From the IMG/VR virus record IMGVR_UViG_3300005096_000101, positions 1-47,499 of that record: DNA of 47,499 bases. One strand, 5' to 3'. Below are positions 1-47,499 of this stretch, piece by piece. A program made the translations under genes and the position numbers. Numbering within the stretch: position 1 is the stretch's first letter; each line of letters starts with the position of its first letter. The notes under the pieces are model-generated. The model searched no databases. It had not been told where the DNA came from and saw nothing but the letters and a program-made list of their open reading frames with translations. The DNA is from a virus.

Positions 1-23
1 AAAAAAAAAAAAAAAAAAAAAAA
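1..23. repeat. Terminal A23 homopolymer (left end)
   Basis: The window opens with 23 consecutive A residues. The right end also finishes with exactly 23 A on the same strand, so the two tracts are a direct repeat. If they are one tract read twice, the molecule closes to a circle of about 47,476 bp. 3' dA-tailing of a linear molecule would give T, not A, at this end, so tailing alone does not explain both ends. Confidence 0.9.
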
Positions 24-127
24 GAACACTGTAGAGCAGAAGTGTCAAATCAAGCCCGATAAGGCTTTGTCAACGGATAACATAGCCATACTCTTAGCTG
101 GGTATTGCTCAGAACGAAAAAACACGC

Positions 128-333
128 ATATACCCCCATTTGACCAAATCTATGAAATCAGGTGTATTCTAGGGGTTATAGACGGGTTTTTCAGGTGTAG
201 CATTGAAATGTAAGGGTTTTTTGGCGTTTGGTAATTTTCCGACCGCCAAATTTAACGCTATGGCGCAAAACGTCTTCCGGCGCATGGTATTATGTAAAAA
301 CTTTAAACCCGTGCCACGGACCGGCATTTGCCC
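128..333 (+). repeat. Left arm of diverged inverted (terminal) repeat
   Basis: Read on the plus strand, this segment matches the reverse complement of 47181-47385. From ATATACCCC (128-136) to GCATGGTA (282-289) the arms align with no gap over 162 positions, with 104 identities by hand count. Conserved blocks are ATATACCCC, ACCAAATCTAT (143-153), AGGTGTA (160-166 and 193-199), GTTATAGA (175-182), TAAGG (211-215) and AAATTTA (248-254). A further block, ATTTGCCC (326-333), is offset by one base. No gene lies in 24-403. The block pattern with repeated AGGTGTA suggests protein-binding sites, for example an origin or genome-end function; that is inference. Confidence 0.85.
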
Positions 334-347
334 GCACAAACGAAAAT

Positions 348-379
348 AGCCCGATAGGGTGTTTATTTCCTACCGGGCT
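348..379 (-). terminator. Rho-independent-like terminator of left-end leftward operon
   Basis: An 11-position stem (348-358 with 369-379, ten pairs and one A-C mismatch) encloses a 10-nt loop. On the minus strand it is followed by ATTTTCGTTTG, a moderately T-rich run. It lies about 25 nt beyond the stop of the last leftward gene (404-559), where an operon terminator would be expected. The T tract is imperfect, so efficiency is uncertain. Confidence 0.6.
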
Positions 380-403
380 ATTGAGCCGTATTGATTAACT
401 GAT

Positions 404-559
404 TTATTCTGCCAGATTGACCATGAAATAATCAAAAGCATCGATTTGGCGGTCGAATGTTTTTCCGCGACCATCGGCAAAGGAAACACAAAAGCCATTG
501 CCGTTGCGTAACTTTTCGATGAATGAGTCGCCCGACTTGCATACAATCATTTTCCACAT
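404..559 (-). CDS. Small hypothetical protein (51 aa)
   Basis: A 51-residue ORF starts at ATG 559 behind an AAAAGGAC ribosome site and ends at TAA 404-406. The protein begins MWKMIVCKSGDSF and has a central GFCVSFADGRGKTF stretch followed by an aromatic-rich tail (DAFDYFMVNLAE), which suggests a small beta-rich fold. I do not recognise the family. It is the last gene of the left-end leftward operon, between a strong hairpin (587-612) in its leader and the terminator at 348-379. Confidence 0.65.
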   Translation of the reverse strand: MWKMIVCKSGDSFIEKLRNGNGFCVSFADGRGKTFDRQIDAFDYFMVNLAE

Positions 560-586
560 GTCCTTTTACCTTGGTTGAAATTATTC

Positions 587-612
587 GCCGGGGGTAAAAC
601 CGCACCCCCGGC
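587..612 (-). promoter_or_regulatory. Leader stem-loop H1
   Basis: A perfect 9-bp stem (587-595 with 604-612, GCCGGGGGT/ACCCCCGGC) has an 8-nt loop. It sits between the stop of the 626-1111 gene and the ribosome site of the 404-559 gene. On the minus strand it is followed by GAATAATTTC, not a U tract, so it is unlikely to be a minus-strand terminator. It belongs to a set of hairpins that precede leftward genes. Confidence 0.7.
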
Positions 613-625
613 TTGTTTTTGTGTT

Positions 626-1111
626 TTAAAGGCCAAAGTCAGCCAAGTCAATTGAATTCTGAACTTCTTTCCTTGTGGCGATTGCCTTTTCTGCTTGAGT
701 CGTAAAGTCCGGGTTCCGTTCAATCAACTTGTCAAGAATTGTGTTCCGTGCATCCATTTCAAGCGCGGTAAAGACGCTATACTTTTTGCCTTGTGCAATT
801 AAATTTGCCTTGAGAACGTCACGGGCAATTATCCGCGCTTCCTTAGTCACGTTATCGACTTGTGCGACTGGCGTTCTGCCGAGAATACCATTGTACAAAT
901 CATCACGCATTTTTTCGGCATGGGCGATTTTATCGGCAATCGTGGGGAACAATTCATTTGAACCGATTGCATCGTTAAGCAACCGTTGCACACCCTTAGC
1001 AATCAAATGTTCAATCGCCGCTTGTGGCAGTTTCGTTGCATCAACAACCACTTTACCTTCTTTACGGATATTCGCCACATATTCAGTCTTTTCTATTTCA
1101 AATTTAAACAT
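626..1111 (-). CDS. Phage protein, paralogue of the 38640-39143 product (161 aa)
   Basis: The start is set at ATG 1111 because it follows AGAAAAGGAAATAAG; the longer reading from 1174 would run through a hairpin and has no ribosome site. The C-terminal half shares a pattern with the protein at 38640-39143: KEAR-IA, then KAN with A-G, then FT, then an I-P-A segment, ending in DLADFGL against LEGLDLG. The N-terminal LPQAAIEHLIAKGVQRLLNDA resembles small conserved proteins of proteobacterial phages whose function is unknown to me. Being duplicated in an early region suggests a nucleic-acid or replication role, which is inference. Confidence 0.75.
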   Translation of the reverse strand: MFKFEIEKTEYVANIRKEGKVVVDATKLPQAAIEHLIAKGVQRLLNDAIGSNELFPTIADKIAHAEKMRDDLYNGILGRTPVAQVDNVTKEARIIARDVLKANLIAQGKKYSVFTALEMDARNTILDKLIERNPDFTTQAEKAIATRKEVQNSIDLADFGL

Positions 1112-1147
1112 CTTATTTCCTTTTCTCATTTTGGCAAAATTGCCTAG

Positions 1148-1174
1148 TTGCGCACGAACCGACTCCATGCGCAA
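1148..1174 (-). promoter_or_regulatory. Leader stem-loop H7
   Basis: TTGCGCA at 1148-1154 pairs perfectly with TGCGCAA at 1168-1174, leaving a 13-nt loop. A second small palindrome (GGCAAAATTGCC, 1133-1144) lies between it and the ribosome site of the 626-1111 gene. The arrangement (hairpin, linker, AAGGA-type site, ATG) matches the other leader hairpins of the leftward genes. Confidence 0.6.
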
Positions 1175-1187
1175 TCTGTCAATTTTA

Positions 1188-1451
1188 TTACTTCAAAATT
1201 ATAGTTACCCTTTTTCTGCCACTGTCTAAAAATTCTACAACTTCAATTCCCGCAATTTCATTAAAGAAATTTAATAAATCTTCATCTGATTTATTTATTA
1301 ATCTTAATGGTGCCCGCAATCGTTGCCCGCCAACTTGGAAAATTACGTGCATTGGCCATCCATCATCGGCAATGATTTTAAAATCAATAAAATCAGTCTT
1401 AATCGTTTCACTTTGATTTGTGGTGATTTTTGTAGTGATATATTTTGTCAT
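1188..1451 (-). CDS. Hypothetical protein (87 aa)
   Basis: An 87-residue ORF starts at ATG 1451 with AAGGAATTGAGAAA immediately upstream. The protein alternates hydrophobic and polar residues (FIDFKIIADDGWPMHVIFQV, then RAPLRLINKSDEDLLNFFNEIAG), which suggests a small alpha/beta fold, and it ends in a basic strand RKRVTIILK. No family is recognised. Its leader carries stem-loop H2 and a small GGGA/TCCC hairpin, an arrangement repeated before the 1996-2139 gene. Confidence 0.65.
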   Translation of the reverse strand: MTKYITTKITTNQSETIKTDFIDFKIIADDGWPMHVIFQVGGQRLRAPLRLINKSDEDLLNFFNEIAGIEVVEFLDSGRKRVTIILK

Positions 1452-1470
1452 TTTCTCAATTCCTTATTCC

Positions 1471-1518
1471 GGGACTATTCCCTAATTGCCGACTGATTTA
1501 ACACCACCAATCGGCAAT
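1471..1518 (-). promoter_or_regulatory. Leader stem-loops H2 plus mini-hairpin
   Basis: ATTGCCGA (1485-1492) pairs perfectly with TCGGCAAT (1511-1518) around an 18-nt loop. A small GGGA/TCCC hairpin (1471-1474 with 1479-1482) follows on the minus strand, then the AAGGA ribosome site and ATG 1451. The same two-hairpin layout, including GGGAATxxTCCCG and TTGAGAAAATG, recurs at 2158-2199. Confidence 0.65.
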
Positions 1519-1528
1519 CCGTGAAGAG

Positions 1529-1708
1529 CTACCAGTCTTCCTGCATAAAGATAGGACCAATTACTGCCATACCTTCAAATTCTTTACCTTCTATTTTTGC
1601 ATCACGATTTTGTATAAATTTTTGAGCCTTCTTTCGTTTATTAAACGGTCCAAAGAAAGTACAAAATTTATTTTCATACCAAGCTATGACCATAAAACGT
1701 TTTTGCAT
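1529..1708 (-). CDS. Small basic hypothetical protein (59 aa)
   Basis: A 59-residue ORF runs from ATG 1708 (after AAAAGGAATATAAA) to TAG 1529-1531. It begins MQKRFMVIAWYENKFCTFFG, followed by a basic segment NKRKKAQKFIQNR and an acidic end MQEDW. It resembles small DNA- or protein-binding early phage proteins in size and charge only; no domain is recognised. It is co-directional with its neighbours and spaced for one operon. Confidence 0.65.
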   Translation of the reverse strand: MQKRFMVIAWYENKFCTFFGPFNKRKKAQKFIQNRDAKIEGKEFEGMAVIGPIFMQEDW

Positions 1709-1721
1709 TTTATATTCCTTT

Positions 1722-1802
1722 TCAGTTTGCCAATGCTACGCTAATCGCGTCTTGAATTTCTTCGACTGTTTCCGCTTCAATTTGTTCAATAAGGTGTAAC
1801 AT
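1722..1802 (-). CDS. 26-residue acidic peptide
   Basis: A 26-codon ORF starts at ATG 1802, preceded by GAAAGGAG with good spacing, the strongest ribosome site in this cluster. The sequence MLHLIEQIEAETVEEIQDAI is predicted to form one amphipathic acidic helix. It fits the gap between its neighbours (1708 and 1819) exactly, which supports a real gene. Function is unknown; a short acidic helix could act as an inhibitor or adaptor of a host protein. Confidence 0.55.
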   Translation of the reverse strand: MLHLIEQIEAETVEEIQDAISVALAN

Positions 1803-1818
1803 TTTCGCTCCTTTCAAT

Positions 1819-1992
1819 TTAGGCATTAATTACGTCTAAAACCTTTTGCCCTATTTTAATCGTTGCTTCAATACATTCTTGCGGCGCTTCTTTATTAACT
1901 TGGTCTTTAATGCCCAATATAAGACAATTGATCAAAATTTCCACGTCGTATAGGGACAGTTCAAGTGTTACGAATTTTTCATCTTTACTCAT
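1819..1992 (-). CDS. Small hypothetical protein (57 aa)
   Basis: A 57-residue ORF starts at ATG 1992 behind AAAAGGATTGAAAA. The N-terminus MSKDEKFVTLELSLYDVEIL is followed by a helical segment with three cysteines across the protein. It has the same MSK(D/E) start as the adjacent 47-residue product and the same GATTGA-AAAATG start context, which suggests local duplication of the translation-start module. No family is recognised. Confidence 0.65.
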   Translation of the reverse strand: MSKDEKFVTLELSLYDVEILINCLILGIKDQVNKEAPQECIEATIKIGQKVLDVINA

Positions 1993-1995
1993 TTT

Positions 1996-2139
1996 TCAAT
2001 CCTTTTCTATAGTGGTTTCTAAAGATAATTTATCAATTGCCACATTTATTGCTTTAACAAAATCTTTGTTATGTTTCCAATAATTTTTCATAGCTTTTAA
2101 ATCTGATAATGTTTCGTGTAAAACATTTTCTTTACTCAT
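1996..2139 (-). CDS. Small hypothetical protein (47 aa)
   Basis: A 47-residue ORF runs from ATG 2139 (after AAGGATTGAGAAA) to TGA 1996-1998. It is largely helical and charged (MSKENVLHETLSDLKAMKNY, then NKDFVKAINVAIDKLSLE). Its end, IEKD, is encoded by the ribosome-site sequence of the next gene. The leader carries stem-loop H3. No function can be assigned. Confidence 0.65.
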   Translation of the reverse strand: MSKENVLHETLSDLKAMKNYWKHNKDFVKAINVAIDKLSLETTIEKD

Positions 2140-2157
2140 TTTCTCAATCCTTTTTTC

Positions 2158-28416: not shown

Positions 28417-28528
28417 TAAAGTTGCTTGTAGAGTATTTGAACCTATCCGCGCTAGTGATAAAGATACCGCAATAACTAAACGCCAAGTAATTGTGCATAA
28501 TGCTAAGTGGGATAAGTTGTGTGATTAG
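28358..28528 (+). CDS. Outer-membrane spanin-like lipoprotein, Rz1 type (56 aa)
   Basis: The start is placed at ATG 28358 (or 28361) after AAAGAGG; a longer frame from 28292 has no such site. The sequence MMLGAMLILAGC gives a lipobox LAGC with Cys12 as the acylated residue after signal peptidase II cleavage. The end NAKWDKLCD resembles short o-spanins of proteobacterial phages (HNAxW-LC). It overlaps the preceding spanin-like gene in a different frame, the usual nested arrangement. Its stop overlaps the convergent helicase stop. Confidence 0.72.
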   Translation: MMLGAMLILAGCVTSISGTNKVACRVFEPIRASDKDTAITKRQVIVHNAKWDKLCD

Positions 28529-29727
28529 AACTTTTTACCTACAGGCTCGTAACAAATACCAACTCCAGGTACAACTTTTTTTCTAAGGTGTTTACCTGTA
28601 ATTAATAATTCTATAAATTTTGGAATTTCCATTGTAGGAATTTTAGTAGCCAGAAACCGAACAAGCATATATTCGGGGACTGGCTGCTTTTTATTTTGTA
28701 GCCAGGCTTCCAGTATAAAGTGTTCTGTCTCTGCCATAACCGTTGCACGACCACCACTTGCCATCGCCTTGAATAGATCGGGCATCGCCGCCTCCGCTTC
28801 TAATAGCCATGCAAAAGCCCTACGGTAGTCGCCTATGGTAATTACAAGATCATCATTACGGGAAGCACTTGCAACCATGCAAAGCTTTAGAAGGTGCGCC
28901 GACCGCCTTGTGTTATAGTGTTGTAATTTAGGATGAATAGGGTTAGGCGCATTGCCGCCAAGGTGCCATGGTCCGAATGCACTTTTAGCTTCTATACTAA
29001 ACTCCATTTCCCCATACATATTTGAAACAGTTTGTAAATCTTTAACCAGTTCTTTATTCAGTTCTTTTTTCTTTTCTTTCTTTGCAAAAATATCTACAAT
29101 GTTTATTTCACCGGAGTATATTAAAAGCGTTCTAGAAAGAAAACCTTCTTCCCAAGCGTGTTCAGGTAATGATTTTACAAAGTAAGTTGGCACTCCGCCA
29201 GAGAAAATATTTATTTGAGTGTGTGGAATTTCATAATGTAAATCCTTTCCGCGCCTACGCTGTGTATACTTATGGCAATCATACAGGTTTGTTAAATTTA
29301 CCATAAAAGCTTTATCATATTCTTGTAATAAATCTCCAAGTTCATTGACAGATATTAAAAGAGAATTATAAGTAATTGTACTGGGAGTTACTTGTGGCTT
29401 TATTAAAGTTTTTTGACTATCGTGAAGTTCATCAATCAAACTAGCTGAAGTCATAGACATTGCACTCACATACGCCTTATCTAATTCTTCCCAATATTCA
29501 CGTACCTTAACTGTCATAAGAGTTTTACCTACCCCAGGCGGTGCCACTGTCACAACATATAAATTCGGATACAGTATACCGATAGCATTATCAACCCAAA
29601 CTTTTCTTTCAAGCGCTCCTGCAATAATAGAAATACCGGCCCATTTCTGGAACAGTTTAGGAGAAGCAGATAAGGATACCGATTGGATAAAACTATCTAT
29701 CCAATCTTCTTTTATTCGTTTGTTCAT
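28525..29727 (-). CDS. Putative replicative helicase ATPase, DUF3987-like (400 aa)
   Basis: The N-terminal part (FQKWAGISIIAGALERKVWV, then YPNLYVVTVAPPGVGKTLMT) has Walker A APPGVGKT at residues 62-69. A NELGDLL motif (about 127-133) takes the Walker B/sensor place, followed by FSGGVPTYF. This layout is that of the DUF3987/RepA-like hexameric helicases found in phage replication operons. A helical C-terminal domain ends in CYEPVGKKF. It overlaps the polymerase stop by ATGA, so the two are translationally coupled and likely act together at the fork. Confidence 0.75.
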   Translation of the reverse strand: MNKRIKEDWIDSFIQSVSLSASPKLFQKWAGISIIAGALERKVWVDNAIGILYPNLYVVTVAPPGVGKTLMTVKVREYWEELDKAYVSAMSMTSASLIDELHDSQKTLIKPQVTPSTITYNSLLISVNELGDLLQEYDKAFMVNLTNLYDCHKYTQRRRGKDLHYEIPHTQINIFSGGVPTYFVKSLPEHAWEEGFLSRTLLIYSGEINIVDIFAKKEKKKELNKELVKDLQTVSNMYGEMEFSIEAKSAFGPWHLGGNAPNPIHPKLQHYNTRRSAHLLKLCMVASASRNDDLVITIGDYRRAFAWLLEAEAAMPDLFKAMASGGRATVMAETEHFILEAWLQNKKQPVPEYMLVRFLATKIPTMEIPKFIELLITGKHLRKKVVPGVGICYEPVGKKF

Positions 29728-31289
29728 AAAATGCCTGAGAGAGAGAAAGAATTTTTATTAGAAACTTTAATATATTCTGGAGTTGTTCTTGTATCTTTTC
29801 CTTTCCAAGGTATAAGTCCGTGCAAATTTCCTGAAGGCTTACCATCTGTATACTCAACGTTTCCCCAATTCCAGCCGATCTTTGCTTCTACAGGTACAAT
29901 AAATTCTCTGCCATCTTTAAGTAGCATTGGTACTCGAAGTGCTTCAATTGCCCAGGGAATTACTTCGTCTTCTTCTTCCTCTTTGTATTCGAAAAGAATA
30001 TTATCATGCACCTGAGCAAGAAGACAAACTCTATGTTCTTTCCACAGTTGCAAAATTCCTGTGTTAATTTCATCGCCAGTCATTGATTGTGGCTGGTAGG
30101 CAACTGCTTCACGAATAACCTTAGCATCAGTTGCTCGGCCAAAGAAAAATCTTCTACGGTTAAAGAAGGGAGTTTGTAAAAAATGTAAATGTTTAAGATC
30201 ATACTTTACACTTTCATGATAAGCTGAGATACAAGGAAAAGTTTCAAAGTATGCTACTTGAAAATCCTTAATAGGTTGTACAGGCAGTTTTGTATGCATT
30301 GCCATTGTATGAGGCTGACCAATATAATTAGTTCCATGCCCTAGTTTCTTTGCCATATCTCTGTAAGTAAAATCTCTATAAAAAATCTGATCAGCAATAG
30401 TACGATCTAATTTTCTATCCCCCGTCCATGGTAAATCTTTCCAAGCCATTTTACAGACATAAGTATGAAGATCGCCAGACTCACAAGCATCTAAATAGGA
30501 ACTTGCAAATTCTTCGCCGTATGAGTCAAGAAATAATTCTCTACAAATTGCGCCAACATTTCTTGAGTCTGCTTGTTCGAGATCAAGATTGGCATACTTA
30601 TACCCCGAACGGGCACGAAAACAAGAACGTAAACTTCGTGCAATATTTTGTGCATTAGAACCTGTTTCGTATTCTGTTTCAGCGGAAGATAACCGTCCTG
30701 TATTTGTTCCTGCTATATTATAAGAGGAACTGAAACAACCATCTTTATCTAATGGGGTTTCAAGAAACTGTCTTTGCTTTTCGTAATCACGGAGGAAAAG
30801 TAAATGATTACAAATAGGCTCTGCATAATAATATTGTGTAAGTTTTTCTAATGCTTCTCTATCAGCAGTTCTACCGTATTTACCTGTACTTTTTGAACGG
30901 TTTTTTATTTCTGGAAGACCCAGTACATCATAGAATAGAGAACATAATTGTTTAGAACTACGCCAATTAATTTTAATCCCCAAACCTTGTTCAATAATAT
31001 CTGTAAGATTTTTAGAAAGAAATTCTATTTTCTTTTTGTTATCAGCAAGCACTTCATTCCACTTATGCCGATCAACTAACAATCCTCGAAGTTGCATTTC
31101 AAGAATTGGAGCTTGAAGGTCCAGAGAAAATTGATAAGTATTCATAGATATCTCATCAGTATTTTTCTGTAATCCTTCAAGCACTTCAAGCGTAACACAA
31201 CAGTCAAGCCCATTGTACACCCAATCAGTTTCATTATCTGATAGGTTAGTCATGACTGCAATGTCAGTAGTGTTTATTATTTTTACCAC
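29724..31289 (-). CDS. Family A DNA polymerase, polymerase part (521 aa)
   Basis: The start is GTG 31289, preceded by AGGA with 9-nt spacing. Motif A is LDLEQADSR (Asp236), motif B RDMAKKLGHGTNY (Arg310, Lys314, His318, Tyr322) and motif C QVHDN (His428-Asp429-Asn430). The position equivalent to E. coli Phe762 is His, and the motif C Glu is Asn; both differ from the usual residues. Residues 25-29 (YNGLD) form an Exo III motif (Y-x3-D), but Exo I and II are absent: they are in the gene at 32308-33324. The enzyme is therefore a split polymerase. Confidence 0.9.
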   Translation of the reverse strand: MVKIINTTDIAVMTNLSDNETDWVYNGLDCCVTLEVLEGLQKNTDEISMNTYQFSLDLQAPILEMQLRGLLVDRHKWNEVLADNKKKIEFLSKNLTDIIEQGLGIKINWRSSKQLCSLFYDVLGLPEIKNRSKSTGKYGRTADREALEKLTQYYYAEPICNHLLFLRDYEKQRQFLETPLDKDGCFSSSYNIAGTNTGRLSSAETEYETGSNAQNIARSLRSCFRARSGYKYANLDLEQADSRNVGAICRELFLDSYGEEFASSYLDACESGDLHTYVCKMAWKDLPWTGDRKLDRTIADQIFYRDFTYRDMAKKLGHGTNYIGQPHTMAMHTKLPVQPIKDFQVAYFETFPCISAYHESVKYDLKHLHFLQTPFFNRRRFFFGRATDAKVIREAVAYQPQSMTGDEINTGILQLWKEHRVCLLAQVHDNILFEYKEEEEDEVIPWAIEALRVPMLLKDGREFIVPVEAKIGWNWGNVEYTDGKPSGNLHGLIPWKGKDTRTTPEYIKVSNKNSFSLSGIL

Positions 31290-32110: not shown

Positions 32111-32308
32111 TTAATCTTCCTTCACTAAAAAATGTTCAAGTTTTTCTTTACTTTTTGCACTACTTAAAATTTGATTTACATAAAGCATAGAATTTAAATC
32201 CCAAGTTTCTTTATCTTCCTTTTTTCTTCTATCATATATTTGCACGTCAATAGTTTTGGCTGACATAAACCATTTAACTGCTACAAAATTATGATTAGAA
32301 TTATCCAT
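32111..32308 (-). CDS. Small hypothetical protein (65 aa)
   Basis: ATG 32308 overlaps the stop of the exonuclease gene (TAATG) and is preceded by AAAAAGGAAGAC, so it is preferred over the in-frame codon at 32353. The protein MDNSNHNFVAVKWFMSAKTI is followed by VQIYDRRKKEDKETW and a helical end LEHFLVKED. It is probably beta-alpha with a basic patch. It ends in KED like its neighbours, because the ribosome site of the next gene encodes those residues. No family is recognised. Confidence 0.65.
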   Translation of the reverse strand: MDNSNHNFVAVKWFMSAKTIDVQIYDRRKKEDKETWDLNSMLYVNQILSSAKSKEKLEHFLVKED

Positions 32309-33324
32309 TAGTCTTCCTTTTTCCGTGTAGATTTTGTTCTCATAAATTTCCAACTTGCCTCATTAGTATGAATGCTTGCCAGAAACCCTAAGCTCTTTTT
32401 CATCTCGGGTTGTTGTGCGTGTTGCAGCAGCATAGTATCATTAGCCATATAAGGAACTGTGATCCCATATTTTTCCCATAGAAACCGTACATCATATAAA
32501 AAATTCTGCCCAACAACAGCTTTATCCAGCCCGCACATTCGCCTGACAAATTTCCATGCCTTTAATTCTTCTTCAAGTGTTTTCCAATAGTTTTTTCTTA
32601 CAGCCGTCCGCGAGTAAAAAGGTACCACCAAGGCCACAGAAGTAGAAGGAGCAAAGCCAATGCAAGTAATCTGTTCTTGAGCTGTCTCAATGTCGATGGA
32701 AAGTACTTGAGAATGTCTGATATAATTTTCATAGAATATCTCCAAGTCTTTTAAAGTTGGTTCAAGCCATATGTTTCTCTCAGGTCTAATGACTTCTGGA
32801 AAGTAAGACTGGCGAAGTGCCTTACAACAATCAGCTATTACTATCGGGCGCATTGTCCAGTCCCGTAGTACTGCAAGCATATTATTTATAGGGATAACTT
32901 TGTGTTTGGTGTAAAGACTTTCAGTAGGAATACCTCGGCAAGAAGCTATCATGCCTGTACCTATTGTTGCCCACGCAGAAGCTGGTCCTACCGCAATAAT
33001 AAGATTAGGGTTTAATTCACGTATACGAACTTGCAGCGCTTCAACAAAAACATAGTATTCTTTCTTAATATACTTTCCCCGCTTTAATGCCGGTATCCCT
33101 TTAATACTTTCAGTTCTTTTTCCAAATAAATTTTTCTCAATACTAAGTGTAGGTTTAACCTGAAAAGGAAACACACAATCAATAGCGCACTCATCCATAA
33201 CTATTCCAGATTGGGAAAGAATACCTTTAAGAGTATAACCAGCACTACCGGCAAACGGACCCCATTCACCTGTATCGCTGTTACGATTAAAAGACTCAGC
33301 AAGAAGAAGAATTTTATTTTTCAT
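32308..33324 (-). CDS. UDG-like domain plus N-terminal part of a 3'-5' exonuclease (split family A polymerase) (338 aa)
   Basis: Residues 1-175 resemble the uracil-DNA glycosylase fold (LLLAESFNR, then GPFAGSAGYTLKGILSQSGI, NPNLIIAVGPASAWATIG), but the GEAPG and C-terminal HP-type active-site motifs are degenerate, so glycosylase activity is doubtful. Residues 206-325 are a DnaQ-like exonuclease: Exo I SIDIETA (Asp211, Glu213) and Exo II VGQNFLYDVRFL (Asn274, Asp278), then NDTMLL and KSLGFLASIHTNEASWK. Exo III is missing and lies at the start of the polymerase gene. UDG-like domains at the N-terminus of family A polymerases are known in some phages such as SPO1. Confidence 0.82.
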   Translation of the reverse strand: MKNKILLLAESFNRNSDTGEWGPFAGSAGYTLKGILSQSGIVMDECAIDCVFPFQVKPTLSIEKNLFGKRTESIKGIPALKRGKYIKKEYYVFVEALQVRIRELNPNLIIAVGPASAWATIGTGMIASCRGIPTESLYTKHKVIPINNMLAVLRDWTMRPIVIADCCKALRQSYFPEVIRPERNIWLEPTLKDLEIFYENYIRHSQVLSIDIETAQEQITCIGFAPSTSVALVVPFYSRTAVRKNYWKTLEEELKAWKFVRRMCGLDKAVVGQNFLYDVRFLWEKYGITVPYMANDTMLLQHAQQPEMKKSLGFLASIHTNEASWKFMRTKSTRKKED

Positions 33325-33521: not shown

Positions 33522-33658
33522 TTTAATAAACTCCTGTGAAAATCATTTGCATTAGAAAGATACTCGAAAGTTTGGGAACAAGCTCCGTTATCTTCCCACC
33601 ATGACACACGAAAATACTCAATACCCTTACAAAAGAAGTTGTCCCTGATTATCTTCAT
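33518..33658 (-). CDS. Small hypothetical protein (46 aa)
   Basis: A 46-codon ORF starts inside the end of the methyltransferase gene (ATG 33658, 32-nt overlap) with CAGGAAAATTATT in front, and ends in an ATGA overlap with the next start. The sequence MKIIRDNFFCKGIEYFRVSW continues with an aromatic, beta-rich part (WEDNGACSQTFEYLSNA) and a basic end. The tight coupling at both sides supports expression. Function is unknown. Confidence 0.6.
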   Translation of the reverse strand: MKIIRDNFFCKGIEYFRVSWWEDNGACSQTFEYLSNANDFHRSLLK

Positions 33659-34940
33659 AATAATTTTCCTGAGCTTTTTCGAAAAGTTCTTCATCAATTT
33701 CTAAACCAAGCACAGACTTTGCGCCTAGTTCTTCCGTGACTTTAACTGCGTTTGCACTTCCGCAAGTAGGGTCGAGCATGATCGTTTCTCCATCGACAAG
33801 CATAGACAAGAAGTGACCCAGCATTTCGGTTGGCTTTTCCGACATATGGACTCGGCGAGATGTAGCACCTGAAAAGGAGTTAGCTTTTGCTCTAACAATT
33901 TTTCTATCTCCGCGAGTGCAGAAGAAAGCTGTTTCATAAGTTTGTCTCGGACCTCTGTTGGGGTCTGGTAGTATACCAGTGTTACAAGATTTGTGCCAGA
34001 CTAATGGCATGTATAAAACTCGCCAGCCCATTTGTTCAAGAACTTCTTTGGTATCTTCATAGTATTTCATACTGAACCAAAAGATCATATGAGCAGAGTC
34101 TGCGATTAAATCTTTCCCTACCATGTAATCAATACCGTGGATTAAGTTCCAATATATTTCTTCATCATCTGCGTACGCACCATGTGTTTGTACAGCTGTG
34201 CCTTGTGTAATATTATCAGCGCCAATTCCATAGGGAAAGTCGCAGTGAAGTAAATTAAACTTTGGGCCTGAATATGTTTTAATAAAATTTAAAAAATCAA
34301 TGTTGAGTAGGGGTACAGAATTAACTGTAACCTCATTGTTAATAATCTTTTCTTCCTGTTGTGTTTCAATAATTTCTTTTGCAGGAAGCACTACAAGATT
34401 TTCAAGTTCACTATCTTTACGCCTAGCGTTAGCTCTCTCGGTTAAGCCTTTGGCTACAGAATATTTTTGTGCCTCAATTACTTTTACATTTCCTTCTGCA
34501 ATCTCTTTAGCTATACCTAATTTTTGCGTGATGCCCGTTCGACTTTCGCCAAGTTCTTCGGCTGTATCTCCATGAGACCAATCTTCATTTACAGTTAATT
34601 TAATTTCATGGTATCGTGCAACGGCTGCAACTTCTTCTTGCCATGAAATATTTTCGCGCTTAATGTTTTCTTCCAGTTCTAAAAGAACAAGTTCATCGTC
34701 TGAAAGATCATCAACAAATTGTACTGGAACGTGGGTCCAGCCTAGCATTTTTACTGCTTCAAACCTACGCTCACCAGTAATTAATTGTCCATCTTTTTTA
34801 ACAATAAGCGGGTGGATCAGTCCTAGATTTTTAATAGATAAAGCCAGCTCTTCAATTTTAATTAATTGTTTCCGCTGGCGTGATGGTCGATCTACAAAAA
34901 TACTTTGAGTAGGATAGGAAGTGAATGTACCTGATGTCAT
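33627..34940 (-). CDS. ParB-like nuclease domain fused to DNA methyltransferase (437 aa)
   Basis: Residues 10-170 are a ParB/Srx-type domain (SFIF-VDRPSRQ start, then GQLITGERRFEAVKMLGWTH with the GERR motif, and a helical DNA-binding part ARYHEIKLTVNEDWSHGDTA). Residues about 215-435 are an adenine/cytosine-N methyltransferase: DFPYGIG (234-240, a DPPY-type motif with Phe) precedes the AdoMet motif LDPTCGSANAV, the beta-class order. It may modify phage DNA against host restriction or control early genes. Leader hairpin H4 lies before it. Confidence 0.87.
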   Translation of the reverse strand: MTSGTFTSYPTQSIFVDRPSRQRKQLIKIEELALSIKNLGLIHPLIVKKDGQLITGERRFEAVKMLGWTHVPVQFVDDLSDDELVLLELEENIKRENISWQEEVAAVARYHEIKLTVNEDWSHGDTAEELGESRTGITQKLGIAKEIAEGNVKVIEAQKYSVAKGLTERANARRKDSELENLVVLPAKEIIETQQEEKIINNEVTVNSVPLLNIDFLNFIKTYSGPKFNLLHCDFPYGIGADNITQGTAVQTHGAYADDEEIYWNLIHGIDYMVGKDLIADSAHMIFWFSMKYYEDTKEVLEQMGWRVLYMPLVWHKSCNTGILPDPNRGPRQTYETAFFCTRGDRKIVRAKANSFSGATSRRVHMSEKPTEMLGHFLSMLVDGETIMLDPTCGSANAVKVTEELGAKSVLGLEIDEELFEKAQENYYEDNQGQLLL

Positions 34941-35498: not shown

Positions 35499-36284
35499 TT
35501 AACCTTTCTTTAATTGCTCAAAGAGCGTTGCTAATCCAGTACCAAGGGGTAGAGTTGCATCAAGTTTGAAGGGTACTGGAGACTTCAAATCAATGTTTGG
35601 GGTAGGGATTGTGCGAATGGTGCGGGTTACATTTTGTCCCATGCCTTTACTTTCGGCAAGGATAAGGGTGTTGAAATAAGCGGGTATGATTGGGCCTAGT
35701 GCCTTCCCTATGGCGTTCGCAAAACCTTTAGTCGTACCGTCCGGTAATTCTGTCAAGCGTACATGTGCATTGATTATAACATTACACTTAAACGCATCCG
35801 AGGTTAGCATGGCAAGAATATTTTCAAGAGACTGTTGCGCCTGAAAAAATACTTGGCGCTTATCTTTGGCCATAGGGTTCATGCCATCAGCCCAGGCGTA
35901 ACAAGCACGAGAGAAAGAGGAAAGACTATCAAGAACAAATACTGTTTTCTCTCCCCATTCACAAGGTTCAGTATCATCTGACCACTTAGTCATAAGCTTA
36001 CAGGCTTCGACATAAGCCTTTGGTCCGCCCTGAATTTTTGGCCCCATAGCGCCTGCAACATATTTATCACGAATAGTTTCATAGTCAACAGAAGACAATA
36101 ACTGTGGGCATTCTTTATTTATAAATGCTACAAGTACATCAAGCCCGTTATCCATATCAAGTATACGAAGTTCATAACCTGCTGCGACAAGAGAAGTAAG
36201 TGCGCCAGTTTTACCCGTACCGCTATTGCCCATGAACATGAGCTTGACGAATTTAGAACTGGAATGCTCAGATAGTTTAGTCAT
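35499..36284 (-). CDS. RecA-like (Sak4-type) recombination ATPase (261 aa)
   Basis: KLMFMGNSGTGKTGALTSLV has Walker A GNSGTGKT (19-26), followed by LRILDMDNGLDVLV, and Walker B in TVFVLDSLSSFS. The short RecA core without N- or C-terminal extensions, the neighbouring SSB-like gene, exonuclease and DnaA-like genes fit the Sak4 group of single-strand annealing/recombination ATPases. It overlaps the DnaA-like gene (ATGA). It probably supports replication-linked recombination with the Cas4-like nuclease. Confidence 0.82.
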   Translation of the reverse strand: MTKLSEHSSSKFVKLMFMGNSGTGKTGALTSLVAAGYELRILDMDNGLDVLVAFINKECPQLLSSVDYETIRDKYVAGAMGPKIQGGPKAYVEACKLMTKWSDDTEPCEWGEKTVFVLDSLSSFSRACYAWADGMNPMAKDKRQVFFQAQQSLENILAMLTSDAFKCNVIINAHVRLTELPDGTTKGFANAIGKALGPIIPAYFNTLILAESKGMGQNVTRTIRTIPTPNIDLKSPVPFKLDATLPLGTGLATLFEQLKKG

Positions 36285-36602: not shown

Positions 36603-37538
36603 TTATCTCCTATCCAGCGGCGACCATGAAGGTTGCTGGTGAAACTTGGCTTTGAGAAATTGTTGTCTAACTGCTTCATTCTTTTGACAAACAGTACGGA
36701 ATTCACAACCGCCATAATCACTGCAAGAAGTAGTATTCATTGGGAAAAAGTTTTTCCGTGTTGCTTCTTGTGCAAGACGTATCCAGTAGACTGTTGACTC
36801 TTTCCATTCTTCGAGCTGCTCATTTGTACGAGAGGTAAAACCTCTAGTAAATCTACTGAACCCAACGGCAATTTGAACAGCGTCGATAACAACGCCTTTA
36901 ATTGGAAGTTTAAACATGATTTGACCGGCATAAGTATATCCTGACATTTGTACATCTGGATTAAATTGTTCGAAATAATAAGAACCTATTGTTGTTTTTG
37001 TGGTTTTTTGGTCTTGAATATAATAATCTCCATTGTAATTTACGAGCCTATCTAAGTGCCCACAGTAAAGAATATCTTTTTCAAATTCAATAGTGAAAGA
37101 ATATTCCACAGCTGGTTTACCGTCTGGGAGAATAACAACTTCCATTGTATCCTCTTTAAACTCTTCCAAATACCAAACGATAGTACGGATTAAATTTTCC
37201 CTAGATTTGAGTGGATCACTTGACATCCAAGGATAGCTGACTTCATTTCCATCCTTATCCTTGCGTACCCAAGTTGACTCAAGGGCTTCTTCAACGACGA
37301 GATACTGGGCTTCGTCATGCGAATATCCAGCTGCTTTATGTTTGTAGTAGTGTTCAAGTGCGGTTGCGTACCAACCACCAAGCAGTAGATGCGGGGATTT
37401 ATCAAACGGAGTCCATCCTTGTATGATTTTGTAAAAATATTTTCGAAGGCATGTTTGGACCAGTGTAACTGACGTTCCATCCCATGCGAATTGAACACCG
37501 TTTTTAAAAGAGGTATTTGTTTCTATTGGATTTAGCAT
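36603..37538 (-). CDS. PD-(D/E)XK nuclease, Cas4/RecB-like, with probable Fe-S cluster (311 aa)
   Basis: The nuclease core is CGHLDRLVN (Asp163) and YIQDQKTTK (Asp176, Lys178), followed by a QMSGYTYA motif (about 197-204). Four cysteines, Cys30 near the N-terminus and Cys272, Cys278, Cys284 at the C-terminus (SCSDYGGCEFRTVC), are placed as in Cas4/AddB-type iron-sulfur nucleases. A 5'-3' resection role with the RecA-like ATPase is likely. The start overlaps the preceding stop (TAATG). Confidence 0.85.
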   Translation of the reverse strand: MLNPIETNTSFKNGVQFAWDGTSVTLVQTCLRKYFYKIIQGWTPFDKSPHLLLGGWYATALEHYYKHKAAGYSHDEAQYLVVEEALESTWVRKDKDGNEVSYPWMSSDPLKSRENLIRTIVWYLEEFKEDTMEVVILPDGKPAVEYSFTIEFEKDILYCGHLDRLVNYNGDYYIQDQKTTKTTIGSYYFEQFNPDVQMSGYTYAGQIMFKLPIKGVVIDAVQIAVGFSRFTRGFTSRTNEQLEEWKESTVYWIRLAQEATRKNFFPMNTTSCSDYGGCEFRTVCQKNEAVRQQFLKAKFHQQPSWSPLDRR

Positions 37539-38639: not shown

Positions 38640-39143
38640 TTAGCCGAGATCCAGGCCTTCCAAAGCATCACTGACAACTTTGTTCTGTTCTTCAACACGC
38701 TTTTTAGCTGATTTAAGAATTTCAGGTTTTTCAGCAATAGAAGCAACAGCAATAGCAAGCTTTTCTTTACCTTCTGGAGTAGAAGTAAACTCTTTAATGC
38801 TTCGGCCAGTTGCAGCAAAGTTAGCTTTGATAGCTGACAATGCAATGCGCCGTGCTTCTTTTTCGATTGGATCGAGTTTGGTGCGTCCAGTTCCACCGGC
38901 TGTAAAGACATACGTAGCGGCGTAGTCTTTGACTTCTTTGGTAACAGTTTTCATTGCGGTTTCGTCACCAGCTTCGGCTGCTTCAATAGCCTTTTTTACT
39001 TTCGGCGACATGTTGTTACGAACACCTTCGGTCCAGGTTTGATTGAGAACTTTTGCTTCAATAGCTGAAAGCACATGTCCTTCGTCATATGGCTGTGGGA
39101 TGGTGTATGTGTTTTTTTGAATGGTAATATCTTTACTGTCCAT
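38640..39143 (-). CDS. First gene of the replication operon; paralogue of 626-1111 product (167 aa)
   Basis: It starts at ATG 39143 after AAAGGATATCCTAAAA, downstream of the near-consensus promoter at 39188-39216. The C-terminal half (DPIEKEARRIALSAIKANFA, then ATGRSIKEFT) parallels the protein at 626-1111, and the end LEGLDLG is like that of other early proteins here. The fold appears helical; the family is a conserved phage protein of unknown function. First place in a strong operon suggests an abundant product, perhaps a DNA-coating protein, which is inference. Confidence 0.72.
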   Translation of the reverse strand: MDSKDITIQKNTYTIPQPYDEGHVLSAIEAKVLNQTWTEGVRNNMSPKVKKAIEAAEAGDETAMKTVTKEVKDYAATYVFTAGGTGRTKLDPIEKEARRIALSAIKANFAATGRSIKEFTSTPEGKEKLAIAVASIAEKPEILKSAKKRVEEQNKVVSDALEGLDLG

Positions 39144-39757: not shown

Positions 39758-40055
39758 TGGAATTACCTCTTTGAAGGATTTCTTCTTTTATAGATTTCGC
39801 CGTTAATGCGCGGACTTTACATCGCGTTTCGGCGTCACTATCGTCTGCATAAAGCACGGCTGATCTTTCTAGTTTGGTTTGCTGTTGACGAGCAATTTCA
39901 GCACACGCCTCCCTTTCGGTCTCCGTCCCTTCCCGGCGGGCTTGAGCTATGACTTTGATAAAGTCGTGTTTAGTTGCGCCGCTCTTTGTTATTCTTTCCA
40001 TAAACAATTCACCAGCGGCCACATCCGCTTCAGTTGGTTCATGTATATTAGTCAT
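39750..40055 (-). CDS. Conserved small phage protein (101 aa)
   Basis: It starts in an ATGACTAA overlap with the helicase end, behind GGAGAAACAG. The sequence TEADVAAGELFMERITKSGA, then REACAEIARQQQTKLERSAV, and AKSIKEEILQRG at the end, follows a pattern found in many phage and prophage small proteins (E-eR-aCA-iA, then a terminal I---I--R). Function is unknown. Confidence 0.68.
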   Translation of the reverse strand: MTNIHEPTEADVAAGELFMERITKSGATKHDFIKVIAQARREGTETEREACAEIARQQQTKLERSAVLYADDSDAETRCKVRALTAKSIKEEILQRGNSND

Positions 40056-41544
40056 CTGTTTCTCCTAATCTATCTTGGCTGAAGAAATTCTCAGATTGTA
40101 CAAAATATAATTTATTTTGTGCGCGGGTTTTAATAACATAGTTGAGGTTTTTTTCTTGACTTTTATCTAAGTCGAGTAAGAATTGATCGAGATAGTAAAC
40201 TGTATCAAATTCTAATCCTTTCGCTTTGTGCCCGGTCATAAGTTTTACCATACCATTTGCAGTCATGATATGGTTTAAGTATTCAATAGCTGCACCAAGA
40301 TTAATTCCTTCGCGTACAAAGATGCGAAGACATTCGGCTTGATCATATATTCTTGCCTTGCTTTTAGACCGGGAACGTTTCAGTGCTTTTTCTTCCCAAC
40401 CATTTACTGCACGAAAACAATCTTCCTGAGGAAGGTCTTTACTGCCGAAGGATGTTAAGATTTTAAGCAACATTTTTGTAATATCATTACCGTAAAGTTC
40501 AGGCGCTACTCCGTCTTTCAGTAATGCAATTGCCATACGGAAAAGTGGAGCGTTGTTGCGGCAAATTATTACAGTGTTTTCATTAAGATGTGAACTGTCC
40601 CATTGGCCAAGGTGTTCAACTGAACCGGGTTTTGCCTGCTCCCAGGCAACCATATTTGGTGCATGGTTTTTTACACTTTCAATGATATTTACTGGACATC
40701 GGAAAGAGACATTAAGATTAAGAGAATGCATTTCAAACTCTTGTCTCATCTTTTCCATTGAGTTCTCATGTGCGCCACGGAAACCATAGATGGCTTGGCA
40801 CTTATCCCCAACTGCAATGAGTCTGCGCTTGGCAATCTTCTTTAACATTTGATGATTTAGAGAAGATAAATCTTGTGCCTCGTCAACCATAACAAGAGGA
40901 TACTGAGGAAAACTTGCATTAAAGCAGGTCGGCAGGAGGATTTGATCATCGAAATCAATCTTGCCATCGAGTGCTTGATGAAGTGATATACAACTGGCTC
41001 TTGTTATAATTTCCCAGGCAAGATCGGATGGGGTATACTCAAGATGATCGTAAAATTCTTCATCGTTCATTAAAATAATTTGCGGTAAAGTTTTATCTTC
41101 AAGCTTTTGAAGCAAAATAAAATCATCAGGAATATACCCGCAAGATTTTCCAAATGCAACTGTTTTAATCATTTCTGCAAAAAACTCATAAGCTTCTTTT
41201 TGTTGTTTATCGGGAAGTACATCAACAATTTCTTTTACAATTTTATAATTCTTTCCCCCACTGACGTAGAGATTTTTCCCGATAGTACTATTCCAAGTAC
41301 GGTGGCCAATAGCGTTGAGTGTACTGGCGTTGCACATCGAAGAAAGTTTTGATTGCATTTCGACTGCAATGCGTTTGTTGAAGGCAAGAACGAGAATGGG
41401 AATTTTATTCAGTTCGTTCGCAATCATTACAAGGGTAGTTGTTTTAGCTGCGCCAGCGTACGCATTGATTATAAGATTGCGATCATCGTTCGCTGCAAAA
41501 TCGATGATTGATTGTTGCTCAGGTGTTGGTGGGAAAGAGGTCAT
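40048..41544 (-). CDS. UvrD/Rep-type superfamily 1 DNA helicase (498 aa)
   Basis: Motif I AYAGAAKTT (28-36), motif Ia LAFNKRIAVEM, motif II MVDEAQDL (Asp221, Glu222), motif III VGDKCQAIYGFRGA, motif IV FRCPVNI, motif V LMTGHKAKGLEFD and motif VI VIKTRAQNKLYFV are all present in order. It is shorter than UvrD (about 720 aa) because the accessory 2B domain is reduced. It probably unwinds DNA 3'-5' in phage replication or recombination. The start overlaps the preceding zinc-ribbon gene by 26 nt. Confidence 0.88.
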   Translation of the reverse strand: MTSFPPTPEQQSIIDFAANDDRNLIINAYAGAAKTTTLVMIANELNKIPILVLAFNKRIAVEMQSKLSSMCNASTLNAIGHRTWNSTIGKNLYVSGGKNYKIVKEIVDVLPDKQQKEAYEFFAEMIKTVAFGKSCGYIPDDFILLQKLEDKTLPQIILMNDEEFYDHLEYTPSDLAWEIITRASCISLHQALDGKIDFDDQILLPTCFNASFPQYPLVMVDEAQDLSSLNHQMLKKIAKRRLIAVGDKCQAIYGFRGAHENSMEKMRQEFEMHSLNLNVSFRCPVNIIESVKNHAPNMVAWEQAKPGSVEHLGQWDSSHLNENTVIICRNNAPLFRMAIALLKDGVAPELYGNDITKMLLKILTSFGSKDLPQEDCFRAVNGWEEKALKRSRSKSKARIYDQAECLRIFVREGINLGAAIEYLNHIMTANGMVKLMTGHKAKGLEFDTVYYLDQFLLDLDKSQEKNLNYVIKTRAQNKLYFVQSENFFSQDRLGETDD

Positions 41545-44652: not shown

Positions 44653-44654
44653 GT

Positions 44655-45455: not shown

Positions 45456-45904
45456 TTAGAAGGTTCCATAATTTTTAAAATATTTTCCAAAGAAATATTT
45501 CTGGTTTTTAAAGATTTACACAGGGCAATAAAAGGAATGGTACTGATTAAATACTCTAAAGAAGAAGTATTTTCGATATAATGTAATTTATCATACATAT
45601 AATCAAGATCATTACCTACAGTCATTATTGCCATTTCTCCACGCAACATACCTAACATAGCTTCACCAGCTAATACTTCTTCATGTTGTAATTTATAGGC
45701 AAGTTTTCTTATTGTTTTTCTGTGTTTAAGCAGAAAAAGTATGGAATTTATAACATAAGTATTACTCATATTTTTTATTAATATTTTTTCTTCCTTTTTA
45801 GTAACCCAGTATGTCGTACTTGGCGGTGCTGGTTTCTTTAATTGTTTAAGCAATCCTGCGATTATAAGCGTTTGATATGAGGGAATTTTTGAAAGTTTTT
45901 TCAC
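45452..45904 (-). CDS. Basic helical hypothetical protein, GTG start (150 aa)
   Basis: The start is GTG 45904, overlapping the previous stop (GTGA), with GAGGAATTTGGACT upstream. It begins MKKLSKIPSYQTLIIAGLLK, is lysine-rich to residue 75, then mostly helical (YKLQHEEVLAGEAMLGMLRG). No domain or catalytic motif is visible and no family is recognised. Confidence 0.65.
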   Translation of the reverse strand: MKKLSKIPSYQTLIIAGLLKQLKKPAPPSTTYWVTKKEEKILIKNMSNTYVINSILFLLKHRKTIRKLAYKLQHEEVLAGEAMLGMLRGEMAIMTVGNDLDYMYDKLHYIENTSSLEYLISTIPFIALCKSLKTRNISLENILKIMEPSK

Positions 45905-46194
45905 AGTCCAAATTCCTCCAAATCAATTTCCATTATGTCTGCTGGGAGTGGGACAGTGCTGCGAGAAGGCTTGTTCTCAAGCAGCCATTCATTAATCATA
46001 GATTGTGTTGGTCGAGCTTCTGTATTTATACAGGGAATTTGATTTTTAACTTGTGCGCGAAGAGTAATTTTTGCACGAAGCACTCGAAAGAGAATATTCA
46101 TTCCAGCTTCACTGTTGGGAATGGTTACTGAATATCCATTTAAATCAAGTTCGAGTGAGTCTTGATCATGGGAAAGTCCGATTGCGTATTTCAT
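45901..46194 (-). CDS. Hypothetical protein with IDLEEFGL tail (97 aa)
   Basis: It starts at ATG 46194 after AAGGATTTTCTC. The N-terminal half (LELDLNGYSVTIPNSEAGMN, then ILFRVLRAKI) is a compact beta-helix unit; the second half is a linker with WLLENKPSRSTVPLPADIM and the tail IDLEEFGL. A conserved tail after PLP is also seen in the 44356-44652 product. No family is recognised. Confidence 0.66.
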   Translation of the reverse strand: MKYAIGLSHDQDSLELDLNGYSVTIPNSEAGMNILFRVLRAKITLRAQVKNQIPCINTEARPTQSMINEWLLENKPSRSTVPLPADIMEIDLEEFGL

Positions 46195-46205
46195 GAGAAA
46201 ATCCT

Positions 46206-46580
46206 TTATATAATCAATCTTCCACGAGAAAGTTTAATTACCTTGTTTTCTGCAATTGTAATGAGTTTAAAAGTATTCTCAAGTTTTTTATTCTTTATGT
46301 AATTTTGCCATATAGAAATTTCTTTTTCTACTGTATAGATTTCTATAGGATAATTAAAAACAAAATTAAAACGCAATAATTCATCGGCTAAATTATTAAT
46401 ATAAAAATAATTTATATATTTAAATCCAGTTGTTTCACCTTCTCGATAGTCGCGAAAGATTTTACCATTTACTATAAGTAAATAGGCACGAAGAGATACA
46501 GGTTTTACTGGTGTAAATTGTGTTCTTTCTAGTATATAACTACGGTACTGACACTGAATTAATTCAATATTTATTTTCAT
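46206..46580 (-). CDS. Hypothetical protein (124 aa)
   Basis: It overlaps the upstream membrane peptide gene (ATGA). The sequence is rich in Ile, Asn and aromatic residues (MKINIELIQCQYRSYILERT, then SLRAYLLIVNGKIFRDYREG) and ends in a basic strand IKLSRGRLII. It appears beta-rich. AT-rich codon use fits the phage. No family is recognised. Confidence 0.64.
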   Translation of the reverse strand: MKINIELIQCQYRSYILERTQFTPVKPVSLRAYLLIVNGKIFRDYREGETTGFKYINYFYINNLADELLRFNFVFNYPIEIYTVEKEISIWQNYIKNKKLENTFKLITIAENKVIKLSRGRLII

Positions 46581-46681
46581 GAGAAAATTACCAATGCTAT
46601 GATGTAAAGAACTGAAAGGGAGAAAGTAACAGAAGATACGATGAGCGCTACTCTCGCACTGTGTATGAAATTCCTTTTCAT
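46577..46681 (-). CDS. 34-residue single-span membrane peptide
   Basis: A 34-codon ORF begins at ATG 46681 behind TTAGGAGGAAAAA, one of the strongest ribosome sites in the window, and overlaps the next start by ATGA. After a basic start (MKRNFIHSARVAL) comes one hydrophobic helix (residues 12-33, ALIVSSVTFSLSVLYIIALV). It would insert N-in in the inner membrane. Early expression of a small membrane peptide suggests superinfection exclusion or host membrane interference, as inference. Confidence 0.65.
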   Translation of the reverse strand: MKRNFIHSARVALIVSSVTFSLSVLYIIALVIFS

Positions 46682-46690
46682 TTTTTCCTC

Positions 46691-46915
46691 CTAAAAAGTT
46701 TCTTCTTGTATTAAATCAATTAATTCATTTAACAACATTGTAAATTTTTCTGAATTTTCTATTGTAGTGTCGTATTTAATAGCATCTGTTAGCCAAGTTT
46801 TTAAATAATTTGCTTGATAATCATCAAGAAATTCAGTTTTTACAATTACTGTTAGCCAGCTATCATACAAACTAATTAATTCTACATTAGTAGGTTTCTG
46901 CATTTTTTCCTCCAA
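46691..46915 (-). CDS. Acidic hypothetical protein (74 aa), first gene of right-end early operon
   Basis: ATG 46915 follows TTTTGGAGGAAAAA. The protein is helical and acidic (NVELISLYDSWLTVIVKTEF, then ENSEKFTMLLNELIDLIQEE). Small acidic early proteins often bind host proteins; no family is recognised. It lies downstream of the tRNA-like gene and hairpin H6 and is probably transcribed from the promoter at 47074-47102. Confidence 0.66.
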   Translation of the reverse strand: MEEKMQKPTNVELISLYDSWLTVIVKTEFLDDYQANYLKTWLTDAIKYDTTIENSEKFTMLLNELIDLIQEETF

Positions 46916-46951
46916 AATTAATTTTAGACTAAGATATTTACTGAGAATGGT

Positions 46952-46982
46952 GGGGATGCTAGACTAGCCTGCTAGCATCCCC
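46952..46982 (-). promoter_or_regulatory. Leader stem-loop H6, next to the tRNA 3' end
   Basis: GGGGATGCTAG (46952-46962) pairs perfectly with CTAGCATCCCC (46972-46982): 11 bp with a 9-nt loop. It starts 2 nt beyond the 3' end of the tRNA-like gene. On the minus strand the following bases are ACCATTCTCAG, not a U tract, so it may be a processing or stability element for the tRNA and the downstream mRNA rather than a terminator. Confidence 0.75.
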
Positions 46983-46984
46983 GG

Positions 46985-47057
46985 TTTGATTAGAGGGATT
47001 TGAACCCACTACATTTCGATTAATAGTCGAATGCTCTACCAAATGAGCTATAATCAA
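46985..47057 (-). tRNA. tRNA-like gene, anticodon ATT (Asn AAU)
   Basis: The minus strand folds as a 73-nt cloverleaf: acceptor TTGATTA/TAATCAA (7 bp), D arm GCTC/GAGC with loop ATTTGGTA, anticodon stem TTCGA/TCGAA with loop CTATTAA, a 5-nt variable loop, and T arm with loop TTCAAAT. The anticodon reads ATT. Oddities are A34, a T-T mismatch in the T stem, a U1-A72 first pair, discriminator A73, and no encoded CCA (CCG follows). It may decode AAU in this AT-rich phage, or be a decoy or degenerate tRNA. Confidence 0.8.
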
Positions 47058-47073
47058 TTGAACGTATGCGTGT

Positions 47074-47102
47074 GTTATAGCACGAATTTGATGGAATGTA
47101 AA
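47074..47102 (-). promoter_or_regulatory. Sigma70-type promoter for tRNA and right-end early operon
   Basis: On the minus strand TTTACA (47097-47102, five of six to consensus), a 17-bp spacer and TATAAC (47074-47079, five of six) lie about 17 nt before the tRNA 5' end. It would transcribe the tRNA and the small genes from 46.9 kb leftwards. Confidence 0.75.
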
Positions 47103-47476
47103 GGAAAATGATTGACTGCATGTATGGGTTTAAGCAGATTAAGGAAATTGTATGTTTTCCGGTTAAAATCAATTGCATGGGGGCAAATCGTTTGCCATGG
47201 CGGGTTTCTAAACTTTTCCATCCTACCATGCGTCAAACGGTTCCCGGCATTGTGCGGGTAAATTTGAAGGTCGATTTTTTGACGGAACCGAAACGATCCT
47301 TATTCCTCAACTGTACACCTCAAATACCCATCTATAACACCTGATTTACACCTCATTCTATAGATTTGGTGATTTAGGGGTATATAGTCGTATTCTGGAT
47401 CACAGCCTTACGTTAGCTGTATGGTAGATTAGAGGGGCTGTCCGTTCGCAACAACCATACCGTGCTAATTCTTTCT
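47103..47476. other. Gene-free right terminal region
   Basis: I see no convincing gene here. It holds the right arm of the inverted repeat (47181-47385), ACACCT repeats, and an outer hairpin in which GTATGGT (47419-47425) can pair with ACCATAC (47454-47460). An open plus-strand frame at 47108-47344 overlaps the conserved repeat and lacks a ribosome site. Confidence 0.6.
47181..47385 (-). repeat. Right arm of diverged inverted (terminal) repeat
   Basis: The reverse complement of this segment matches 128-333. Block offsets from the outer edge are the same in both arms: ACCAAATCTAT +15, AGGTGTA +32 and +65, GTTATAGA +47, TAAGG +83, AAATTTA +120, GCATGGTA +154. This arm has an additional near-copy, CAGGTGTT, between the two AGGTGTA units. 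The edge is 114 nt from the right end, against 127 nt on the left. Confidence 0.85.
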
Positions 47477-47499
47477 AAAAAAAAAAAAAAAAAAAAAAA
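47477..47499. repeat. Terminal A23 homopolymer (right end)
   Basis: The window ends with 23 A, the same strand and the same count as the left end. See the left tract for interpretation: a circle joined in an A tract, a natural direct terminal repeat, or assembly break points in one longer homopolymer. Confidence 0.9.

Follow-up and report, generated by a model that had tools for sequence, protein, structure and literature searches.

The stretch of DNA analysed here, hereafter the window, is the 47,499-base virus record IMGVR_UViG_3300005096_000101, and its two ends together form an element in which inverted arms of phased short repeats surround a run of A. Our analysis indicates that this element is probably a replication origin of the iteron type, with inverted repeat arrays around an A-tract, that belongs to a mobile phage replication module. 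What related phages share is the architecture of the element, not its sequence.

The coordinates of the window's features are collected in Table 1. The two outer segments, described as inverted copies in an earlier sequence-only reading at coordinates within 3 bases of ours, are indeed diverged inverted copies, with an alignment score of 97, whereas none of 500 dinucleotide shuffles scored above 30. Along their best ungapped diagonal the arms share 104 identities over 160 bases (next-best diagonal, 65), and they are about 65% identical; under laxer scoring their similarity extends to about 53-429. In the circularised genome, searched in 900-bp windows, the arm pair was the top inverted repeat (97, next 31) and the only one scoring at least 40. 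Exactly 23 A stand on the + strand at each end, as that reading had it, and the AGGTGTA units that it pointed out are part of AGGTGT-type 11-bp iterons, four exact copies per arm, those of one arm being in register with those of the other. Its proposal that the retained blocks are selected binding sites stood in so far as the inverted structure is real and the blocks resemble such sites, and an origin was among the options it offered. Directly outside the left arm, at 46983-47057 on the - strand, is a gene for tRNA-Asn (anticodon att, 67 bits).

We compared 14 genomes that were picked by their polymerase, with the centre of each picked by its longest A/T run, neither choice depending on arm score. 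In 9 of the 14 the top-scoring inverted repeat of the whole genome was centred on this run (9-23 bases), and in G007 the second-best was, the best being a fold-back at a contig end. The chance probability of the resulting 10 of 14 is about 1e-14, the window, which prompted the search, being one of the ten. Seven control phages had no A/T run above 8 and no such inverted repeat.

From the centre outward, the element consists of the A-run (A9-A23 in the 14 genomes), GTATGG/CCATAC boxes in the window's clade, and the inverted arms of phased short repeats. The boxes number 3-6 within 400 bp of the tract, compared to 0.35-0.5 expected, in all ten clade genomes, and are absent or sporadic in Caulobacter phage Kuura (OQ067476), Microcystis phage Mel-JY34, the Manatee Spring phage and the Desulfofustis phage. 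Repeat lags within the arms pool at 10-14 bp (z up to 10.7), and the A lie on the late-gene strand throughout the 14-genome set, with the exception of the Desulfofustis phage. Each phage's left arm matched its own right arm better than it matched the arms of the 13 other phages (14/14), the cross-matches being at chance (about 20). No close relative turned up when the window's own iteron array was searched for exactly. The sequence-only reading had named one-armed relatives as a finding that would refute it; this is not the situation in most relatives, and arm symmetry was no better than chance in 3 of the 14. A single match to an arm pattern in L002, a contig without polymerase, was taken as chance. 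In MW202489 the annotated hypothetical gene that overlaps the A-run and arms (L171:38502-38783) is doubtful, and the OXA-58 beta-lactamase label of a nearby 59-amino-acid open reading frame (39992-40171) is very probably wrong.

The occurrence of the element tracks the replication genes. Both are present in Mel-JY34, the Manatee Spring phage and the Desulfofustis phage, in which no packaging protein of the window was detected at E 1e-3. G021 likewise combines the replication module and the element with different terminase and capsid genes, and Kuura, which shares the replication genes and the small terminase with the window, has a weak element. Conversely, AF, Flu_PA14_4, UFJF_PfDIW6 and epsilon15 share the terminase, portal and capsid, not the replication genes, and are without the element. 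It was also absent from all IMG loci whose large terminase subunit (TerL) is less than 50% identical, from L045 (TerL 54% identical, contig without polymerase) and from 56 of 58 bacterial-genome loci with this terminase. One of the two positives there, L202, has the boxes and the flanking protein and is a true member; the other, L225, was not counted (A9 run, uneven repeats, no flanking protein found). No element was detectable in PaMx33, GTE2 and Tiera, whose polymerase similarity is only remote. A genome scan with an alignment of the small terminase subunit (TerS) was unsuccessful. The sequence-only reading had called such a structure unexpected for a podovirus with a family-A polymerase; this was not borne out, since the element recurs in phages whose replication module contains one.

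The window's genes for terminase, portal and major capsid protein belong to the epsilon15 type. From the join, late genes are read rightward and early genes leftward, with a few leftward genes between the join and the terminase genes. The polymerase, DUF3987, Sak4-like, nuclease, ParB_N-methyltransferase and superfamily-1 helicase genes of Table 1 all lie in the early half. The polymerase, a DUF3987 protein and a PD-(D/E)XK nuclease are the only window proteins present in all 13 other element genomes, and a Sak4-like ATPase and a ParB-methyltransferase protein usually also belong to the module. DUF3987 has been predicted to be a replicative helicase family (PMC5862659). The AlphaFold model of the window's DUF3987 protein (predicted local distance difference test score, pLDDT, 80) matches MCM helicases (E 2.5e-11; template modelling score, TM, 0.4-0.5), and a C-terminal winged helix was read from the order of secondary structures in the model. 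Small open reading frames separate the window's polymerase from the preceding polymerase-family frame; in Mel-JY34, the Manatee Spring phage and PaMx33 both polymerase parts match one annotated polymerase gene.

Next to the element, 0.25-0.75 kb from the A-run, is the gene of a fast-evolving protein whose relatives adjoin the run in other clade members and in the Manatee Spring phage; G021 is an exception, with the relative 1.7 kb from the run. An AlphaFold2 model of this flanking protein (pLDDT 77) had no significant match in the PDB, and sequence-profile PDB matches to pentatricopeptide designs were discarded as low-complexity. A profile search of public contigs with the family was unsuccessful because the family is too diverged. 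Our candidates for binding the repeats are the flanking protein and the DUF3987 protein with its winged helix.

Table 1. Positions of the element's parts and of the associated genes in the window
Feature	Position	Strand	Basis or remark
Central A-tract, half at window start	1..23	+	same tract as 47477-47499
Central A-tract, other copy at window end	47477..47499	+	
Right arm of inverted repeat	128..336	+	score 97 vs shuffle maximum 30
Left arm of inverted repeat	47178..47385	-	same basis as right arm
Four 11-bp iterons, AGGTGTATTCT/AGGGGTTATAG/ACGGGTTTTTC/AGGTGTAGCAT	160..203	+	direct reading; starts 160/171/182/193
Four 11-bp iterons, AGGTGTAAATC/AGGTGTTATAG/ATGGGTATTTG/AGGTGTACAGT, inverted, in register with 160-203	47310..47353	-	direct reading; starts 47353/47342/47331/47320
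Inner box GTATGG, 58 bp left of tract	47419..47424	+	box enriched near tract, 10/10 clade genomes
Inner box CCATAC, 22 bp left of tract	47455..47460	+	
Inner box CCATAC, 62 bp right of tract	86..91	+	
Flanking gene, 182 amino acids, fast-evolving, flanks element in relatives, largely helical, without database family; candidate for binding the element	626..1174	-	
Slower-evolving paralogue of flanking protein, inside replication module	38640..39143	-	
DUF3987 protein, P-loop ATPase, C-terminal winged helix, MCM-like model; candidate replicative helicase	28525..29727	-	
Family-A DNA polymerase domain	29724..31289	-	PF00476, E 2e-29; 13/13 other element genomes
Separate open reading frame, polymerase-family part N-terminal to polymerase domain; probably exonuclease	32308..33324	-	phrog_17
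ParB_N + N6_N4 methyltransferase protein	33627..34940	-	
Sak4-like AAA protein	35499..36284	-	
PD-(D/E)XK nuclease	36603..37538	-	13/13 other element genomes
UvrD-type superfamily-1 helicase	40048..41544	-	

In relatives fetched via their terminase and small-terminase proteins, a run of A8-A22 with an inverted arm on either side lies within the contig, in most cases about 2.0-2.5 kb upstream of the gene for the large terminase. The element is assembled through in L022, L032, L035, G005, G008, G013 and others, and spans the circular join in G003, G014 and G021. The ends of G021 share an exact 127-base overlap containing the A-run; those of G014 and G003 also overlap across the run, with a difference of one or two A. 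The G017 contig begins within the A-run, and G016 has an exact 23-base end overlap located outside it; the contigs of G004, G017, G018, G020 and G022 were read at their ends only. Because relatives carry the element internally or across circular joins, we take the window's ends to be an assembler cut at a homopolymer, not termini, and the earlier options of a genome end or a linear-replicon relic are not supported. The simplest account is that the window represents a circle opened within the A-run, its contig ends overlapping by 23 bases, and the true run may be longer. The element differs from phi29/PRD1-type ends: in relatives the inverted repeats do not lie at exact physical ends, and the window's polymerase belongs to family A (PF00476), not to the protein-primed family B. 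Homopolymer contig ends in metagenomic phage records can therefore be taken wrongly for genome termini.

Several related records show other irregularities at their ends. Near-exact inverted repeats at contig ends of G004 and G007 (L089:501-1585, L090:7172-8000, L094:9665-10000) are probably assembly fold-backs. The contig ends of G022 (L164:1-40, L165) consist of long stretches of C or G at a distance of about 190 bp from the A-run, and the region seems hard to sequence or assemble. EBPR podovirus 3 (L170), deposited as a partial genome, ends between its early and late blocks, the expected position of the element.

Iteron-type origins, such as phage lambda ori, P4 ori1/crr and plasmid origins, have arrays of short, helically phased repeats beside an A/T-rich stretch and are tied to replication genes. 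The element has phased short repeats (four of 11 bp per arm, with pooled lags of 10-14 bp), an adjacent A/T-rich region that is the longest A/T run in each of the 14 genomes and whose role in opening is putative, and a link to the replication module, being present with replication genes and absent with packaging genes alone. It departs from the known origins in having two inverted arms mirrored around a pure A-tract, in lying outside the replication genes and in a repeat sequence that varies from phage to phage; unlike them, it has no O/DnaA-type initiator that we could find. If the element acts as an origin, a phage-encoded protein would bind the repeats of both arms, the A-tract region would be opened and two helicases would be loaded facing outward. 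Forks would then leave both ways along the late and early blocks, which are transcribed away from the element. In a more specific version, which is possible but doubtful, the outward-facing pair would be the MCM-like helicase loaded at the mirror-symmetric site, and the two arms would change together between phages and so form a replication signal private to each phage.

Several observations weigh against an origin, or against parts of this scheme. GC skew shows no consistent switch at the tract and tracks the gene strand. The own-arm margin is small in G014, G016, G002 and Kuura (own scores 25-29), and in a larger set, which was partly selected by arm score and in which G013 and L101 are the same genome, the own-arm match exceeded all others in 29 of 34 entries, with G014, G002 and Kuura among those that failed. 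Loci with internally assembled elements were likewise selected by score thresholds. In Kuura only 55 bp separate the left virion end from the tract, and a role in end formation is possible. The TM of 0.4-0.5 backs the AAA+ superfamily more firmly than MCM itself. Judged from sequence, both the origin role and the repeat-binding protein are candidate assignments.

The joined arms are also predicted to fold, as single-stranded DNA, far better than shuffles, with 188 of 217 pairs across the arms, and a hairpin route to terminal-repeat duplication has been proposed for T7. As the leading alternative to an origin, the palindrome could serve packaging or end processing, either marking the site of concatemer cutting or forming a hairpin that duplicates a direct terminal repeat. 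Such a role would fit the position of the element a few kb upstream of the terminase genes and the exact 606-bp terminal repeat of Kuura (PhageTerm result in PMC9959647), a phage whose left end is 55 bp right of the A-run. However, Mel-JY34, the Manatee Spring phage, the Desulfofustis phage and G021 combine the element with different terminase or capsid genes, and many phages with this terminase do without it, so that the element does not track the packaging genes. The contigs of relatives close into circles through the element, although collapsed terminal repeats would look alike. Because the element tracks replication rather than terminase genes, packaging seems unlikely as its main role, while retaining a real chance; an origin and an end site could also sit side by side, as Kuura suggests.

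The meeting point of outward-transcribed early and late blocks is where a two-sided transcription control region might be placed, in which the repeats would act as operators and the boxes as phage promoters serving both blocks. We consider this improbable: sigma-70-like sites are not clearly enriched (5 compared to 2.7 ± 1.7, and 2 compared to 3.6 ± 1.9), the long symmetric arms would be left unexplained, and there is no divergent promoter pair because the genes on both sides of the tract point the same way in the window, in Kuura and in Mel-JY34 in its orientation. Two arrays of phased 11-bp repeats and an encoded ParB_N-domain protein also recall a centromere-like partition site. The model for such a site, parC of plasmid R1, consists of 11-bp repeat arrays that are direct, whereas the element's arms are inverted; the ParB_N protein is a methyltransferase fusion and was not detected in Kuura, and no ParA/ParM-type partner was found among the window proteins scanned, which did not cover all small flanking open reading frames. 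A partition site is therefore very improbable. Hardly any weight remains for the view that the structure arose in assembly, or that the genome is truly linear and has inverted terminal repeats. The arms do lie at contig ends and some related contigs have near-exact end fold-backs, but arms only about 65% identical do not resemble chimeric fold-backs, many independent contigs have the element in their interior, which already refutes this account for the relatives, and protein-primed replication would be expected to use a family-B polymerase rather than the family-A enzyme found.

Considered as a probable origin, the element has partial parallels elsewhere. In Herpes simplex virus oriS/oriL, inverted initiator sites flank an A/T-rich centre, an analogy only, as that is a eukaryotic virus with short boxes and unrelated proteins. 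Kuura has the same replication module, with an A12 run, GGGCAGTT repeats on the left and inverted ACTGCCC on the right, but differs in its weak arm symmetry (25), in the 606-bp direct terminal repeat starting 55 bp from the run, and from the window in its large terminase subunit and capsid. SCCmec elements and phages with MCM-like helicases (references in PMC5862659) are likewise bacterial mobile elements that replicate via an MCM-like ATPase; in that work the DUF3987 domain lies within primase-containing proteins, whereas here it forms a 400-amino-acid protein beside a family-A polymerase. Roseophage SIO1 likewise has inverted repeats near its deposited contig ends, once presumed to act in replication, and later authors regard those ends as probably misplaced (PMC6775973). 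The open-access literature yielded no description of an element such as the one reported here.

Together, these results provide a specific and testable origin candidate for a widespread, mostly uncultured group of phages. The rule that the longest A-run centres the best inverted repeat also flags a candidate in deposited genomes, for example that of Microcystis phage Mel-JY34, and Caulobacter phage Kuura, which has been cultured, has a weaker version. Arms matching within each phage and differing between phages would be a natural case of origin specificity diverging while symmetry is kept.

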